Position numbers and translations under genes: made by a program
Part shown: positions 4,461-23,585 of the stretch, one piece after another
How the letters are laid out: each line of letters begins with the position of its first letter
Position numbering within the stretch: the first letter of the stretch is position 1
Origin: Bacteroidota bacterium
GTDB lineage: Bacteria; Bacteroidota; Bacteroidia; B-17B0; Aurantibacillaceae
Direction of reading: 5' to 3'
DNA length: 64,000 nucleotides
Assembly (NCBI GenBank): GCA_030692515.1
Contig: JAUXZS010000056.1
Coordinates: 310,001-374,000, forward strand
Notes under the pieces: generated by a model
Database searches by the model: none
What the model saw: the letters and a program-made list of their open reading frames with translations, nothing else
Told to the model about the DNA's origin: nothing

Positions 4461-4563
4461 AAATGGTATAACGAATTTTAAGCTTTAAAATTGTGTAAAG
4501 TTATTGATTTTGTTGGGTTTAATGCTGCTAAAAATGAATAATAAACCCTAAATTTACAGCGCT

Positions 4564-4914
4564 ATGGAAATTACAGTTATGAAATCTAAGCTGCACGGCG
4601 TTAGTGTTACGCAGGCCGAATTAGATTATATCGGAAGCGTTACAATTGATGAGGATTTGATGGACGCGGCAAATTTAATTGAAAATGAGCAAGTGCATGT
4701 TTTGAATAAAAACAATGGTGAGCGGTTTATTACTTATGTTATTAAAGGCGAAAGAGGGAGCGGTGTTATTTGTTTAAATGGACCAGCAGCATTGCTTGTT
4801 AAGTTGGGCGATGTTGTTATTATTATTTCATACGCAACTATGGATTTTGAAAAAGCAAAAAGTTTTCGTCCATGGGTTATTTTCCCTGATATTAAAACTA
4901 ATAAATTAAAATAA
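4564..4914 (+). CDS. panD: Aspartate 1-decarboxylase
   Basis: It makes beta-alanine from L-aspartate for pantothenate and coenzyme A synthesis. The proenzyme self-cleaves to create a pyruvoyl group, and the cleavage pair G24-S25 is present in YIGSVTID. R54 and Y58, which act in substrate binding and catalysis in the E. coli enzyme, occupy the same positions here, as does K9 (SKLHGV). This numbering supports the ATG at 4564 over the internal ATG five codons later. The 116-residue length is normal. The next gene starts two bases after the stop, so they are probably cotranscribed. Confidence 0.96.
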
Positions 4915-4915
4915 A

Positions 4916-5953
4916 GTGTCGAAGGTTAAGAAAACTAAATCCATAATACAATTTATTGTTTTACTTAGCATTGGCGTATTATTTATTTGGCTTTCGGTGC
5001 GTGCAATTACCGATGATCAAAAAGAAAAAATTATTGATGCCTTTAAACAAGCCGATTATTTTTGGATTGTTGTTTCGCTGCTAATTTCATGGTTTAGCCA
5101 TTTTCTGAGAGCTTATAGATGGAATTATTTATTAAAACCCACAGGGCACAAAATAAATTTAGTAAATGCCAATTGTTATGTAATGATTGGGTATTTAGCT
5201 AATTATGGTATTCCCAGAATGGGCGAAGTTTCGCGCTGTACACTTGCTCCTAAATATGATAATACTCCATTTGAAGTAGCTTTTGGAACTGTTATTACAG
5301 AACGAATTATTGATTTTATTTTATTTCTAGTAATTTTTGCGCTTACACTTTTAATTCAATTTAATGAGCTTAGTTTTTTAGTAAATAAATATATTTTTGA
5401 TCCACTCATGAATTGGTTAAGTAGACTTACAGAAAGTCCAACACAACTAATAATTTTCGGGGTAATTTTAATTGGCGCATTTGTTGCTTTCTTTTTATTA
5501 AGAAAAAAGTTCTCTTCTCTTTTAAAAGGAAAACTTGGAACCATTATTAAAGGGATGGGTCAAGGGTTGAGCTCAATCGCAAAAACAGACAAACCTTTTC
5601 AATTTATATTTTTGAGCCTATCAATATGGGCTTGCTATTTTTATTCGCTCTATGTTTGTTTTTTTGCTTTAGAAGGAACGTCACGACTTGGGCAATCAGA
5701 ATGTTTAACGCTACTGTTATTTGGAACCTTTGGAGTTATTTTTGCGCCGGGCGGGCTAGGGGCATACCCTGCAATAATAAGTTGGATATTATTTAATACT
5801 TATGGTGTTGATGAAATTTCGTCTTTTGCATTGCCTTGGCTTGCTTGGACAAGTCAGTTTGCCTTAATATTGGTTTTAGGATTAATAAGTTTAGTTATTT
5901 TACCACTTTATAATAGAAATAAAAATGTCGTTTCATCAACAATTAAAAAGTAA
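4916..5953 (+). CDS. Flippase-like integral membrane protein (lysylphosphatidylglycerol synthase TM / UPF0104 family)
   Basis: This polytopic inner-membrane protein of 345 residues has about eight hydrophobic helices, beginning with IQFIVLLSIGVLFIWLSV. The landmarks FLRAYRWNYLL, YLANYGIPRMGEVSRC and FGVIFAPGGLGAYPAII are typical of the lysylphosphatidylglycerol synthase transmembrane-domain family. Members lacking the synthase domain are thought to move or modify lipids; no substrate can be named here. The start is GTG at 4916, one base after the panD stop. The 3' end overlaps rfaE2 by 29 bp, so panD, this gene and rfaE2 look like one transcript. Confidence 0.85.
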   Translation: MSKVKKTKSIIQFIVLLSIGVLFIWLSVRAITDDQKEKIIDAFKQADYFWIVVSLLISWFSHFLRAYRWNYLLKPTGHKINLVNANCYVMIGYLANYGIPRMGEVSRCTLAPKYDNTPFEVAFGTVITERIIDFILFLVIFALTLLIQFNELSFLVNKYIFDPLMNWLSRLTESPTQLIIFGVILIGAFVAFFLLRKKFSSLLKGKLGTIIKGMGQGLSSIAKTDKPFQFIFLSLSIWACYFYSLYVCFFALEGTSRLGQSECLTLLLFGTFGVIFAPGGLGAYPAIISWILFNTYGVDEISSFALPWLAWTSQFALILVLGLISLVILPLYNRNKNVVSSTIKK

Positions 5954-6416
5954 AATAGTATCAAAAGAAACTGCTTTGCAAGCTATTAATTTAGAAAAAA
6001 AGAGCGGAAAAAAAGTTGTTTTTACAAATGGGTGTTTTGATATTATACATCCAGGGCATGTTGACTACTTAGCCAAGGCAAGAGATTTAGGGGATTATTT
6101 AATTTTAGGATTAAATACTGATAAGTCTGTAAGGTTGTTGAATAAAGCGCCAAATAGGCCTTTGAACAATGAGTTTGCAAGAGCTATAGTTTTAGCGGCC
6201 TTTGCTTGTATTGATACTATTGTTTTATTTGATGAACAAACCCCTCTTGAATTAATAAAATTTTTGCGCCCAAATGTTTTAGTTAAAGGAGATGATTATC
6301 AAGTTGAAAAAATTGTTGGTTACGATAGTGTAATTGCAAACGGCGGAACAGTTGTAACCATTCCTTTTTTAGAAGGGTATTCAACCACAAAACTAATCGA
6401 GAAAATTTTATCTTAA
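5925..6416 (+). CDS. rfaE2: D-glycero-beta-D-manno-heptose 1-phosphate adenylyltransferase
   Basis: This cytidylyltransferase-fold enzyme forms ADP-heptose for the lipopolysaccharide core. It corresponds to the C-terminal half of E. coli HldE as a stand-alone protein. FTNGCFDIIHPGH contains the nucleotide-binding HxGH motif at residues 42-45. LGLNTDKSVRLLN, VKGDDYQVEKIVG and the C-terminal GYSTTKLIEKI are family signatures (normally ISTTxII). The length of 163 residues is normal. Its 5' end overlaps the preceding membrane-protein gene by 29 bp. The partner kinase RfaE1 is not in the window. Confidence 0.93.
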   Translation: MSFHQQLKSKIVSKETALQAINLEKKSGKKVVFTNGCFDIIHPGHVDYLAKARDLGDYLILGLNTDKSVRLLNKAPNRPLNNEFARAIVLAAFACIDTIVLFDEQTPLELIKFLRPNVLVKGDDYQVEKIVGYDSVIANGGTVVTIPFLEGYSTTKLIEKILS

Positions 6417-21011: not shown

Positions 21012-21182
21012 TTATTCAGCCTTTTTTGCTGCTTTTTTCGGCGCTGCTTTTTTAGCTGCTGCTTTTTTCGGCGCTGCCTTAGTTGCTGTTTTTGTTACAG
21101 TTTTTTTCTTTTTTTGGCGAACAACGCCTGTCGAACCAATATGAATTTTGCCACGTTTAGTTCTTTTATCACCTTTTCCCAT
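21012..21182 (-). CDS. Ribosomal protein bTHX with Lys/Ala-rich tail
   Basis: This 56-residue protein starts MGKGDKRTKRGKIHIGSTGV, the conserved core of the small-subunit protein THX (bTHX), which binds at the top of the 30S head in Thermus. The core is followed by a tail built of A-A-P-K-K and A-A-K-K units (about residues 35-56) that could contact rRNA. The gene is easily overlooked because of its length. The opposite frame here is open only because of this simple composition. A strong terminator follows directly, and rnpA lies divergently upstream. Confidence 0.9.
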   Translation of the reverse strand: MGKGDKRTKRGKIHIGSTGVVRQKKKKTVTKTATKAAPKKAAAKKAAPKKAAKKAE

Positions 21183-21345: not shown

Positions 21346-21699
21346 TTGTGTAGTAAAAAGCAGATTGATTTATTGTTCTTAAAAGGCAATAATGCAATAT
21401 CTTTTCCTTTAAAGTTAATTTATTTAGAGACAGACGTTGGATACGTTAACCCTTGCCAGGCCATGTTTGTTGTGCCTAAAAGAGCATTTAAAAGAGCCCA
21501 CGACAGAAATAAACTAAAACGAAGAATGCGTGAAGCGTATAGATTAAATAAAGCATCTTTTTATGAAGTACTTAGCTCAAACAACAAAAAAATTATTTTA
21601 TCGTTTTTATTTGTAGGAAAGAAAAGCGAAGACTATAGCTTGATAGAATCGGCCATAATAAACCATCTTAAAAGAATAGAATTAGCCATTAGCAAATAA
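21346..21699 (+). CDS. rnpA: Ribonuclease P protein component
   Basis: It assists the catalytic RNA in maturing tRNA 5' ends. The basic core KRAHDRNKLKRRMREAYRLNK contains the RNR motif, and FVVPKRAFKRAH precedes it. The stated start is a TTG giving MCSKKQID. However, the same frame is open further upstream and encodes NFNKQERL, which matches the conserved N-terminus of RnpA (Phe, then ERL). Translation may therefore start at the ATC at 21316, or the TTG form may lack the first strand. An AGGAG at 21338-21342 is too close to the TTG to be a good ribosome-binding site. Confidence 0.92.
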   Translation: MCSKKQIDLLFLKGNNAISFPLKLIYLETDVGYVNPCQAMFVVPKRAFKRAHDRNKLKRRMREAYRLNKASFYEVLSSNNKKIILSFLFVGKKSEDYSLIESAIINHLKRIELAISK

Positions 21700-21701
21700 A
21701 A

Positions 21702-22847
21702 TTATCTTTTGTTGGCTTCTTTTAAATAAGAGTCAATAGCGCCAGACATACTTGGATTTTGAGGGTTTGGCGCAAAAACATCTAATCTGAAACCCAAATC
21801 TTTCATTAATAAAGCGGCTGCATGACCAAAAGCTGCAATGCGAGTGTTACCTTGTTTAAAGCCAGGAAAATTTTGTTTAAGAGACTTAATGCCTGCAGGA
21901 GTAAAAAACACTAGCATATCAAACTCGCTTAATGATTTTATGTCACTTAAATTTGCGCTAACAGTTTTATAGAAAATTCCTTTAGTGTAAGTTATTTTTA
22001 GCTCATCTAAAAAATCCATAATCTGTTCTTTAGTCACATCACTAGATGGTAACAAAAACTTTTCATCTTTATTTTTTCTAATAACGTCAACCAAATCAAG
22101 AATTGTACCGTGTCCAAAAAATATTTTGCGTTTACGGTATTGAATATATTTTTGCAAATAATAGGCGGTTTGCTCGTTGATGCAAAAATATTTCATGCTT
22201 TCAGGAACTGTAATTCGCATTTCATTACAAAGTCTAAAATAGTGGTCTACAGACAAACGACTTGTTAAAATCACTGCTCCGTGCTCCAAAATATCAATCC
22301 GTTGCGCTCTAAAATCTTGCGAGTTTAAACCTTCTATTTTTATAAATTGCCTAAACGTAATGTTTAAATTATATTTTTTCCCAAGGTCTAAATATGGATT
22401 TTTGTCTCCATCTAAAGGTTTTGGTTGAGATATTAAAACACTTTTTACTTTATTTTTAGGATAAGTACTTACCTCTATTTTTGGAGGTGGGGGTAAGGTA
22501 ATGAGCGGTTTTTTTGAGGACTTGCGAGGACGTTTCGTTGAAACAGCCTTCTCTATGTTTTCTTGAATATTATTATTTACTAAAACCTTTTTTTCTTTAA
22601 CCGCTTTAACTTTTTTCTCAATAGTTTTTATTAAAGGCTTAGCAATAATTTTTTTGGCTTTTTTAGCCGGTTTTTTTACTACGGCTTTGGGCTTGCTAAT
22701 TTTTTTTGCAACAGGCTTAGGCTTTTTTGAGATTGGCTTTTTTTTAATAATCTTTTTGATTGAAGAAGATTTTTTAGCTGAAGCTTTTGATTTTTTAATG
22801 AGCTTTTTAACTAACTTTTTTTTAACTAACTTTTTCTTCGCTGACAT
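21702..22847 (-). CDS. hemD: Uroporphyrinogen-III synthase (HemD) with lysine-rich N-terminal extension
   Basis: The C-terminal 250 residues match the Bacteroidota HemD family: KVKSVLISQPKPLDGDKNPY, HGAVILTSRLSVDHYFRL, YFCINEQTAYYLQKY, LLPSSDVTKEQIMDFL and MLVFFTPAGIKSL. It closes hydroxymethylbilane to uroporphyrinogen III for heme synthesis. Residues 1 to about 130 are an extremely Lys/Ala/Pro-rich region (KKLVKK, KKPKPVAKK, VVKKPAKKAKK) like a histone H1 tail, followed by a proline run (LPPPPK). No ATG, GTG or TTG lies at the domain boundary, so the extension appears to be translated. The gene is last in the mutY to hemD run and starts 12 bp after DUF4271. Confidence 0.85.
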   Translation of the reverse strand: MSAKKKLVKKKLVKKLIKKSKASAKKSSSIKKIIKKKPISKKPKPVAKKISKPKAVVKKPAKKAKKIIAKPLIKTIEKKVKAVKEKKVLVNNNIQENIEKAVSTKRPRKSSKKPLITLPPPPKIEVSTYPKNKVKSVLISQPKPLDGDKNPYLDLGKKYNLNITFRQFIKIEGLNSQDFRAQRIDILEHGAVILTSRLSVDHYFRLCNEMRITVPESMKYFCINEQTAYYLQKYIQYRKRKIFFGHGTILDLVDVIRKNKDEKFLLPSSDVTKEQIMDFLDELKITYTKGIFYKTVSANLSDIKSLSEFDMLVFFTPAGIKSLKQNFPGFKQGNTRIAAFGHAAALLMKDLGFRLDVFAPNPQNPSMSGAIDSYLKEANKR

Positions 22848-22859
22848 TAACTAAGCCGT

Positions 22860-23585
22860 TTAAAATGTTTCAATAATATACTTTACCAACACAATAACTG
22901 GTAATATTTCCAGAGCGCAAAAGTATGCAAAAGTTTGTAATAATCCTACTCTTTCTTCTATAAGACTAATTATTATGCCACGATACCATTTATACAAGAA
23001 AGAAAGCATCAAAACAACAAAAGCTCCCGAAATAAAAACGAGTGAATTAAATCGCGTTAGCTCAGATAAAATTAACCAAGGAAACAGAAACACGCCAAAA
23101 GTTTGACTAATTATTAATGAGTTATAACCGTAATCTGATAGGGTTTTATAATTATTAGTTAAAAAACATATAAATTGATTTAGTAGGCTTTTTAGACCAA
23201 CAAAAAGTAAAACCAATAAAAGAATAAATGAAAATTGAACAAATAAGTCTTGCTCGGTAAAAACAAATTTATAAAACGAATTTAACTTGTAAAGGAGAAA
23301 CGAAATGTTTAAAAAATAAAAAAGAGATAATAAAAGAGAGTGTAGCTTAAAGCTCTTTGTTTCTTCCCTTTCTAATTCATGTAAGGCATTTGAATTAAAG
23401 GTGGACTGGATGATTTTTAAAACCTTTGAGTAAGATGTAACCTTAATAAAAACTAATAAACCAAAACAAAACAGAAAAAACAAAGACGTCCAAACAATGT
23501 AAGGGTTGTTTTTTAATAATGGAGTTAAGTGTTGTTTTTGTAAAAGATGATTGTAAAAAAGATGATTATTCAGTTCTAAATCCAA
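22860..23585 (-). CDS. DUF4271 integral membrane protein
   Basis: This 241-residue protein has about six hydrophobic helices (IVWTSLFFLFCFGLLVFIKV, LLLSLFYFLNISFLLYKL, FSFILLLVLLFVGLKSLL, FGVFLFPWLILSEL, LVFISGAFVVLMLSFLYKW, ILPVIVLVKYI). This pattern and its place next to hemD fit DUF4271, a Bacteroidota membrane family of unknown function. It starts with ATG three bases from the end of the DUF5777 gene. A membrane role linked to tetrapyrrole synthesis is suggested only by the conserved neighbourhood. Confidence 0.75.
   Translation of the reverse strand: MDLELNNHLFYNHLLQKQHLTPLLKNNPYIVWTSLFFLFCFGLLVFIKVTSYSKVLKIIQSTFNSNALHELEREETKSFKLHSLLLSLFYFLNISFLLYKLNSFYKFVFTEQDLFVQFSFILLLVLLFVGLKSLLNQFICFLTNNYKTLSDYGYNSLIISQTFGVFLFPWLILSELTRFNSLVFISGAFVVLMLSFLYKWYRGIIISLIEERVGLLQTFAYFCALEILPVIVLVKYIIETF

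Follow-up and report, generated by a model that had tools for sequence, protein, structure and literature searches.

The gene at 21702-22847 of the window (the whole stretch of Bacteroidota DNA analysed, 64,000 nucleotides in length) is most likely a Bacteroidota paralog of the uroporphyrinogen-III synthase (UROS) fold, of the type of PG0202 of P. gingivalis, and not the HemD of the heme pathway. Its protein carries a lysine-rich N-terminal tail that is evidently translated and under selection, as judged from its reading frame, and that may act as an electrostatic tether to a polyanion; for this proposal, taken together with the assignment of the core, the chances appear about even. The lysine tail described in the initial annotation, which presented the gene as a HemD fusion, is real but not a one-off, because tails occur on the same paralog in five families or more, at the N-terminus in some and at the C-terminus in others.

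The reading frame and its lysine-rich extension

The initially annotated coordinates of the ORF were borne out, and the strand is minus. Its parts and flanking genes are as follows.

21702-22847, minus strand: UROS-fold paralog ORF, 381 aa
22608..22847, minus strand: lysine-rich, predicted disordered tail, residues 1-80 (35/80 Lys; pLDDT block means 45-55; dN/dS roughly 0.33)
22458..22607, minus strand: second part of the extension, residues 81-130 (dN/dS 0.05; pLDDT 43-45 for residues 81-110, 68 for 111-120, and 87 for 121-130)
within 22458..22607, minus strand: proline-rich linker, residues 105-130, KRPRKSSKKPLITLPPPPKIEVSTYP, conserved in the 24-sequence alignment
21702..22457, minus strand: HEM4 core, residues 131-381 and stop (Pfam HEM4, 93.7 bits; pLDDT mostly >90)
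22125..22136, minus strand: paralog-specific RKRK motif, residues 238-241, invariant in 52/52 paralogs
22860..23585, minus strand: DUF4271 membrane protein gene, 12 bases upstream (Pfam PF14093, 91.4 bits)
21346..21699, plus strand: rnpA (RNase P protein), convergent neighbour (Pfam PF00825, 45.1 bits)

Residues 1-130 include 45 K, 14 I, 13 P, 12 S, 11 V, 10 A, 7 L, 5 E, and 2 R, giving a pI of 10.9 and a net charge of +42. Lys, Ala, Pro, Val, and Ile, said earlier to make up almost all of this region, account for 93 of its 130 residues (72%), so that the description was slightly overstated, Ser being about as frequent as Val. The Lys share of the extension is 34.6%, compared with a mean of 14.7% (SD, 3.2; maximum, 25.0%) in 2000 draws of random DNA of equal base composition. 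When searched against Pfam, the tail matched no histone H1-like or other named lysine-rich family, the best hit being CofD at 14.2 bits (cut-off, 30).

Among the ORFs of at least 80 aa in 461 kb sampled from the same genome (window included), Lys-rich termini, defined by ≥23% K in the first or last 60 residues, were found in 6 of 355. The window ORF has the most Lys-rich N-terminus of the 355, and one other ORF is richer, at its C-terminus. The most Lys-rich terminus of the sample belongs to a 268-aa ORF (L153:99-905, plus strand), the last 60 residues of which are 47% Lys. A small protein with a signal-like start and KDGKCGEKKA-type repeats, possibly metal-binding, is encoded at L146:10580-10966 (plus strand). 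In the window itself, the ORF at 21012-21182 (minus strand) corresponds to the small ribosomal protein Thx (Pfam, 29.3 bits, just below the 29.7 cut-off); it has a Lys/Ala-rich C-terminal tail and lies two genes from the lysine-tailed paralog.

The 130-residue extension was initially treated as uniform. It is polybasic and evidently translated, but only the part before approximately residue 105 is of low complexity, and residues 105-130 form a conserved and partly ordered linker. The alignment of 24 same-genus proteins contains a variable lysine stretch followed by the conserved sequence KRxRKSSKKPxITLPPPPxIEVSNxP right before the core. In the AlphaFold2 prediction (input, a 49-row alignment; alignment A2 consists of 48 of the 80 pattern-search loci and the window), block means of pLDDT were 43-55 for residues 1-110, 68 for 111-120, 87 for 121-130, and mostly >90 in the core. 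In this model, the extension appears to end in an ordered linker of about 20 residues, which probably lies on the core.

Evidence for translation and selection of the tail

Comparison of N-termini across related genomes, proposed earlier as a check on the extension, supports it. Each of the 24 other same-genus genomes covered by the first search had a paralog match, and the tail was read in 23 of them; the 24th (G003) yielded a 42-residue fragment in an open frame of 162 aa and was left out of the tail count. A wider search added five same-genus genomes, of which three (G064, G137, and G353) were read and are all tailed; G336, in which the contig start cuts the gene (46 aa read), and G104 stand outside the tail counts. 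The tail is also present in 5 of the 5 genomes read from four other genera of the window's family (f1). The 38 distinct f1 tails range from 92 to 172 aa in length, from 23 to 36% in Lys content, and from +22 to +50 in net charge. The composition of the tail is thus retained while its sequence changes.

Among six close species, dN/dS was 0.052 for residues 81-130, 0.029 for the core, and 0.33 for residues 1-80, the last value being rough because the alignment of the tail is loose. As initially noted, there is no alternative start at the core boundary, ATG, GTG, and TTG all being absent in frame between codons 1 and 187. The segment VKSVLISQPKP also corresponds, as previously proposed, to the ordinary start of the protein, since untailed relatives begin with KVKSxLVSQPKP. 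The ATG of the tail lies 12 bases after the DUF4271 stop codon, and the median gap between DUF4271 and the paralog is 16 in 22 tailed loci versus 31.5 in 52 untailed loci. That the tail is untranslated and the real start lies nearer to the core would be difficult to reconcile with a first in-frame ATG, GTG, or TTG after codon 1 no earlier than codon 187, with the closeness of the tail ATG to the preceding stop codon, and with purifying selection in the tail reading frame, and it seems extremely improbable.

Identity of the core

The core matches Pfam HEM4 at 93.7 bits, against a cut-off of 27.5. Foldseek ranked UROS structures at positions 1 to 13 (11-18% identity), with 1jr2 as the best match (E = 2e-11, 18% identity) and 4es6 at E = 1e-10. 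A single-sequence search for a close solved relative of the window protein found none; its calsequestrin matches were taken as chance.

The same genome encodes a separate HemC-HemD open frame of 535 aa (L146, C41, about 4532-6136), the HemC part of which passes TIGR00212 (286.7 bits; cut-off, 164). HemC matches in many other genomes likewise sit in open frames of about 520-560 aa, and the lengths of these frames suggest that the HemC-HemD fusion is widespread in the class. A third HEM4 gene of the genome (L165, C66:16028-16615, minus strand) encodes a protein of about 230 aa, and extra HEM4 matches are present in only some of the same-genus genomes. In a tree of 42 paralogs (chosen from 152 extracted cores; L170 lies outside the core extraction) and 8 HemD-type sequences, the two groups were split by a long branch with support of 100/99.

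The two groups also differ in sequence motifs. RKRK (238-241) is present in 52 of the 52 paralogs compared and in 0 of 7 HemD-type sequences, position 240 being R or K in all seven; tailed families are over-represented among the 52 paralogs, many loci having been retrieved for the length of their open frames, and conservation of the motif was judged on loci from other searches because the peptide patterns of one search included RKRKIFFG. Y293 of the window protein is the Tyr aligned with human Y168, and the position of human T228 is occupied by A344 in the window and by Thr in 44 of 52 paralogs and 7 of 7 HemD-type sequences; we take Y168 and T228 to be active-site residues of human UROS in this numbering. 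Catalysis by the window paralog appears doubtful but is conceivable, because Y293 is retained and Thr occupies the T228 position in 44 of the 52 paralogs.

Two further arguments were dropped. The window protein scores far below the NCBIfam UROS equivalog cut-off (29.8 bits against 275), but the HemC-HemD fusion of the same genome (60.6/275) and the HemD of G028 (70.0/365), used as controls, are also below, and the test is neutral because the fusion fails the same cut-offs. The high pI of the core (median, 9.15; n = 152) was considered as a sign of nucleic-acid binding and set aside, the HemD part of the fusion being equally basic (about 9.4).

Distribution of the paralog and of HemC

The paralog was matched in all 41 genomes of the first search (own genome included; G003 by its fragment), 7 of which have no HemC match. 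In the class as a whole, it was matched in 392 of 396 genomes, and a second query gave an equal count. HemC was found in 85 of the 119 genomes that are at least 95% complete and was not found in 34; the 20 of these 34 that were listed all matched the paralog, weakly in two cases (f42 and f50, in which the best E values are about 1e-27 to 1e-44). In one genome in which HemC was not found (G093), the paralog is lysine-tailed. In the control set, Bacteroides ihuae has HEM4 and no HemC. Two records titled Candidatus Saccharibacteria and Glaciecola amylolytica (L086 and L131) place the paralog deep inside the Bacteroidota part of the tree, and they are probably mislabelled or mixed.

The initial assignment to HemD was therefore right as regards the fold (UROS, Pfam HEM4), but the separate HemC-HemD fusion in the genome and the separate clade, which occurs also in genomes without HemC, argue that the gene is not the HemD of the heme pathway, and the name is probably wrong. 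A working pathway HemD, with a tail that gathers heme enzymes, would explain the UROS fold, the HEM4 match, and the retained Tyr293; it would leave unexplained why the genome has a HemC-HemD fusion besides, why the paralog is matched in genomes without a HemC match, why the window protein has A344 where 7/7 HemD-type sequences have Thr, and why DUF4271 and rnpA, rather than heme genes, are its constant neighbours. We consider this explanation very unlikely.

Neighbouring genes

The adjacent gene had been named as DUF4271, and Pfam confirms this (PF14093, 91.4 bits; cut-off, 29.7). The neighbourhood was surveyed at 78 of 80 loci, two (L099 and L101) being left out because no frame was found. 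The most constant neighbour found is DUF4271, which directly precedes the paralog on its own strand in 77 of the 78. rnpA lies downstream of the paralog in 48 loci, within 450 bases in 46, and 30 have no rnpA match. In 39 loci it shares the strand of the paralog; in the other 9, which come from close relatives of the window, it is convergent, suggesting that a local inversion took place in the window's lineage. With matches in 392 of 396 class genomes, DUF4271 beside it, and often rnpA as well, the paralog fits the PG0202 type of Bacteroidetes HEM4 protein, with which it was compared by gene order. In a literature search of partial coverage, the papers that mention DUF4271 were, by title, on animals.

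The main rival to a polyanion tether is that the tail attaches the protein to the acidic lipids of the inner membrane or to the adjacent DUF4271 membrane protein, the latter having been suggested initially. Polylysine is generally known to bind acidic lipids. The constancy of DUF4271 directly upstream (77/78 loci) is in keeping with this reading, but DUF4271 is equally constant beside untailed paralogs. The last 40 DUF4271 residues have a median charge of 0 beside tailed paralogs (22 loci) and of +2 beside untailed ones (52 loci), a slight drop in basicity, but this end is not clearly acidic, and charge compensation by DUF4271 ends was set aside for these reasons. No amphipathic helix signal was found: at the tail starts, 2 of 38 reached a shuffle p ≤ 0.05, which is about chance, and the best amphipathic window over the whole tail gave p = 0.157 against shuffles. 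An amphipathic membrane helix in the tail was accordingly rejected, and attachment to the membrane or to DUF4271, although possible, appears unlikely.

Recurrence of lysine tails across families

N-terminal tails were found in f1 and in one genus of f28 (4/4 read, L191-L194), two other f28 genomes having short open frames. C-terminal tails were found in three families. In f6, both of the genomes seen are tailed. In f29, the tail is present in 8 of 16 genomes and was read in every one of the eight; it reaches about 243 aa, and one partly masked tail was counted on its readable portion. In f9, where the C-terminus was read in 11 genomes, five are tailed, namely G405, G427, G436, G428, and G304. 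The f29 untailed set of eight comprises three that were read and five judged by frame length. In many other families, open frames are too short for a long tail among the matches listed. Long open frames in f20 and in several genomes of f9 (L031, L196-L198, L200, L201, and L204) were rejected as lysine tails, the upstream stretch containing 0-5% Lys.

The f28 tail starts with LKAKNILV in three loci and with LKAKKNLV in L193, and this start resembles the first strand of the core, KVKSILV. The sequences look as though the start had been duplicated and a lysine-rich stretch placed between the two copies.

On a core-only tree of 74 paralogs (chosen from 152 cores; L170 outside the core extraction; bootstrap not fully settled), the fewest changes that explain the distribution are 2 for the N-terminal tail and 6 for the C-terminal tail, and well-supported branches force 2 and 4 changes, respectively; these counts do not separate gain from loss. 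Drift towards lysine driven by AT content was rejected as the cause of the tails, because the f9 tails persist at 57-64% GC with AAG exceeding AAA in 5 of 5 tails; the Lys content of the window's extension is also above all random draws.

Neutral expansion of a low-complexity sequence with no particular role would agree with the fast turnover of residues 1-80 in sequence and length (92-172 aa in f1) and with the existence of related lineages without the tail, 8 of 16 f29 genomes showing no long tail. Against it, dN/dS is 0.33 and 0.05 in the two parts of the extension and not near 1 (with the tail alignment loose), and Lys is held at 23-36% across the 38 distinct tails. Furthermore, separate lineages carry tails on this one protein, some at its N-terminus and others at its C-terminus, tails are present at high GC too, and Lys-rich termini are rare in the sampled proteome (6/355). 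A neutral origin of this kind thus seems quite improbable.

Proposed role of the tail

The reading that we prefer is that of a polyanion tether on a PG0202-type paralog. A predicted disordered polycation under selection is joined to an orphan UROS-fold core in several separate lineages. The tail would raise the affinity of the protein for a polyanion, of which RNA, ribosomes, and DNA are the likeliest, and the core, which has an invariant RKRK motif of its own, would thereby be concentrated where it acts. These three are preferred because the core has that invariant basic motif, because the genomic setting is that of rnpA/yidD, and because HupB and TopA, with their lysine tails, provide an analogy. 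The charge of the 38 f1 tails (+22 to +50), the presence of RKRK in 52/52 paralogs, and the close downstream position of rnpA in 46/78 loci support the polyanion side, although the nearness of rnpA alone is weak evidence for RNA binding. The published P. gingivalis data given below, on PG_0202 and, if it is the PG0202 ortholog, on PGN_0310, point the same way. Of the two kinds of tethering first suggested for the tail, to nucleic acid and to DUF4271, both are possible. Many families have no long tail, and the tail is therefore not essential to the shared function.

A broader and rather unlikely scenario can also be drawn by analogy. Basic tails on Oxa1/YidC insertases offer a parallel for tethering to ribosomes or RNA at the membrane. 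A tetrapyrrole-enzyme fold might have been turned into a translation- or RNA-linked factor, working with the DUF4271 membrane protein and the rnpA-yidD cluster across nearly all sampled Bacteroidia, including heme auxotrophs, and tails might later have tethered it, several times, to membrane-side ribosomes or RNA.

The label HemD or uroporphyrinogen-III synthase is given to PG0202-type proteins even in P. gingivalis, a heme auxotroph for which it makes little sense. The recurrent polycationic tails provide a natural clue to what this orphan paralog touches. Identifying the target of the tail would open to testing the role of a protein that nearly every genome of the class encodes, and would correct heme-pathway reconstructions that count the paralog as HemD.

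Comparison with known systems

The phylum-specific HEM4 signature has been in print since 2007 and is, like lysine tails on DNA proteins, already known. The listing of Bacteroidetes signatures that contains PG0202 is reportedly that of Gupta and Lorenzini (2007). In its entry there, PG0202, ‘HemD, putative’, is a HEM4 signature protein of 165 aa that is specific to Bacteroidetes and missing in S. ruber (PMC1887533). The locus tags of PG_0200 (YidD), PG_0201 (RNase P protein), and PG_0202 are consecutive, and the three genes are jointly upregulated in a P. gingivalis mutant (PMC10101095). P. gingivalis is described as lacking the full heme pathway and keeping homologues of HemD, HemN, HemG, and HemH (PMC13227078). 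PGN_0310, annotated as uroporphyrinogen-III synthase and inferred here to be the ortholog of PG0202, is listed as upregulated 1.90-fold with ribosomal protein genes in a ppGpp-null mutant (PMC6994654). Both PG0202 and the window paralog are HEM4 proteins, and PG0202 lies beside rnpA and yidD by locus tag (PMC1887533, PMC10101095). The entry for PG0202 describes no tail and gives 165 aa (PMC1887533), whereas the window paralog is tailed and has 381 aa; the two are likened by description and gene order.

In literature searches of partial coverage, no paper pairing uroporphyrinogen-III synthase with ‘lysine-rich’ was found, nor was a recurrent lysine tail on the paralog or a statement that the tailed protein is not the pathway HemD.

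UROS/HemD (1jr2, 4es6) shares its fold with the window core. It differs in its identity of 11-18%, in its separate clade, and in that the window paralog is not in a heme operon; RKRK, the linker, and the tail are features of the window paralog that are absent from the HemD-type sequences compared. In the actinobacterial HEM4 and winged-helix regulators (NnaR/Rv0260c), a HEM4 core is joined to a nucleic-acid-binding part. That part is a folded DNA-binding domain in another phylum, whereas the window paralog has a predicted disordered tail.

In HupB and TopA, a folded core is extended by a lysine-rich tail or by lysine repeats. They represent the lysine-tailed DNA proteins of mycobacteria and actinobacteria, respectively (PMC5676037, PMC7398561). 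Their cores are DNA proteins, whereas the window core has a tetrapyrrole-enzyme fold. HupB and TopA may nevertheless serve as a model for how a lysine tail acts, the likeness being the addition of a lysine-rich segment to a folded core.
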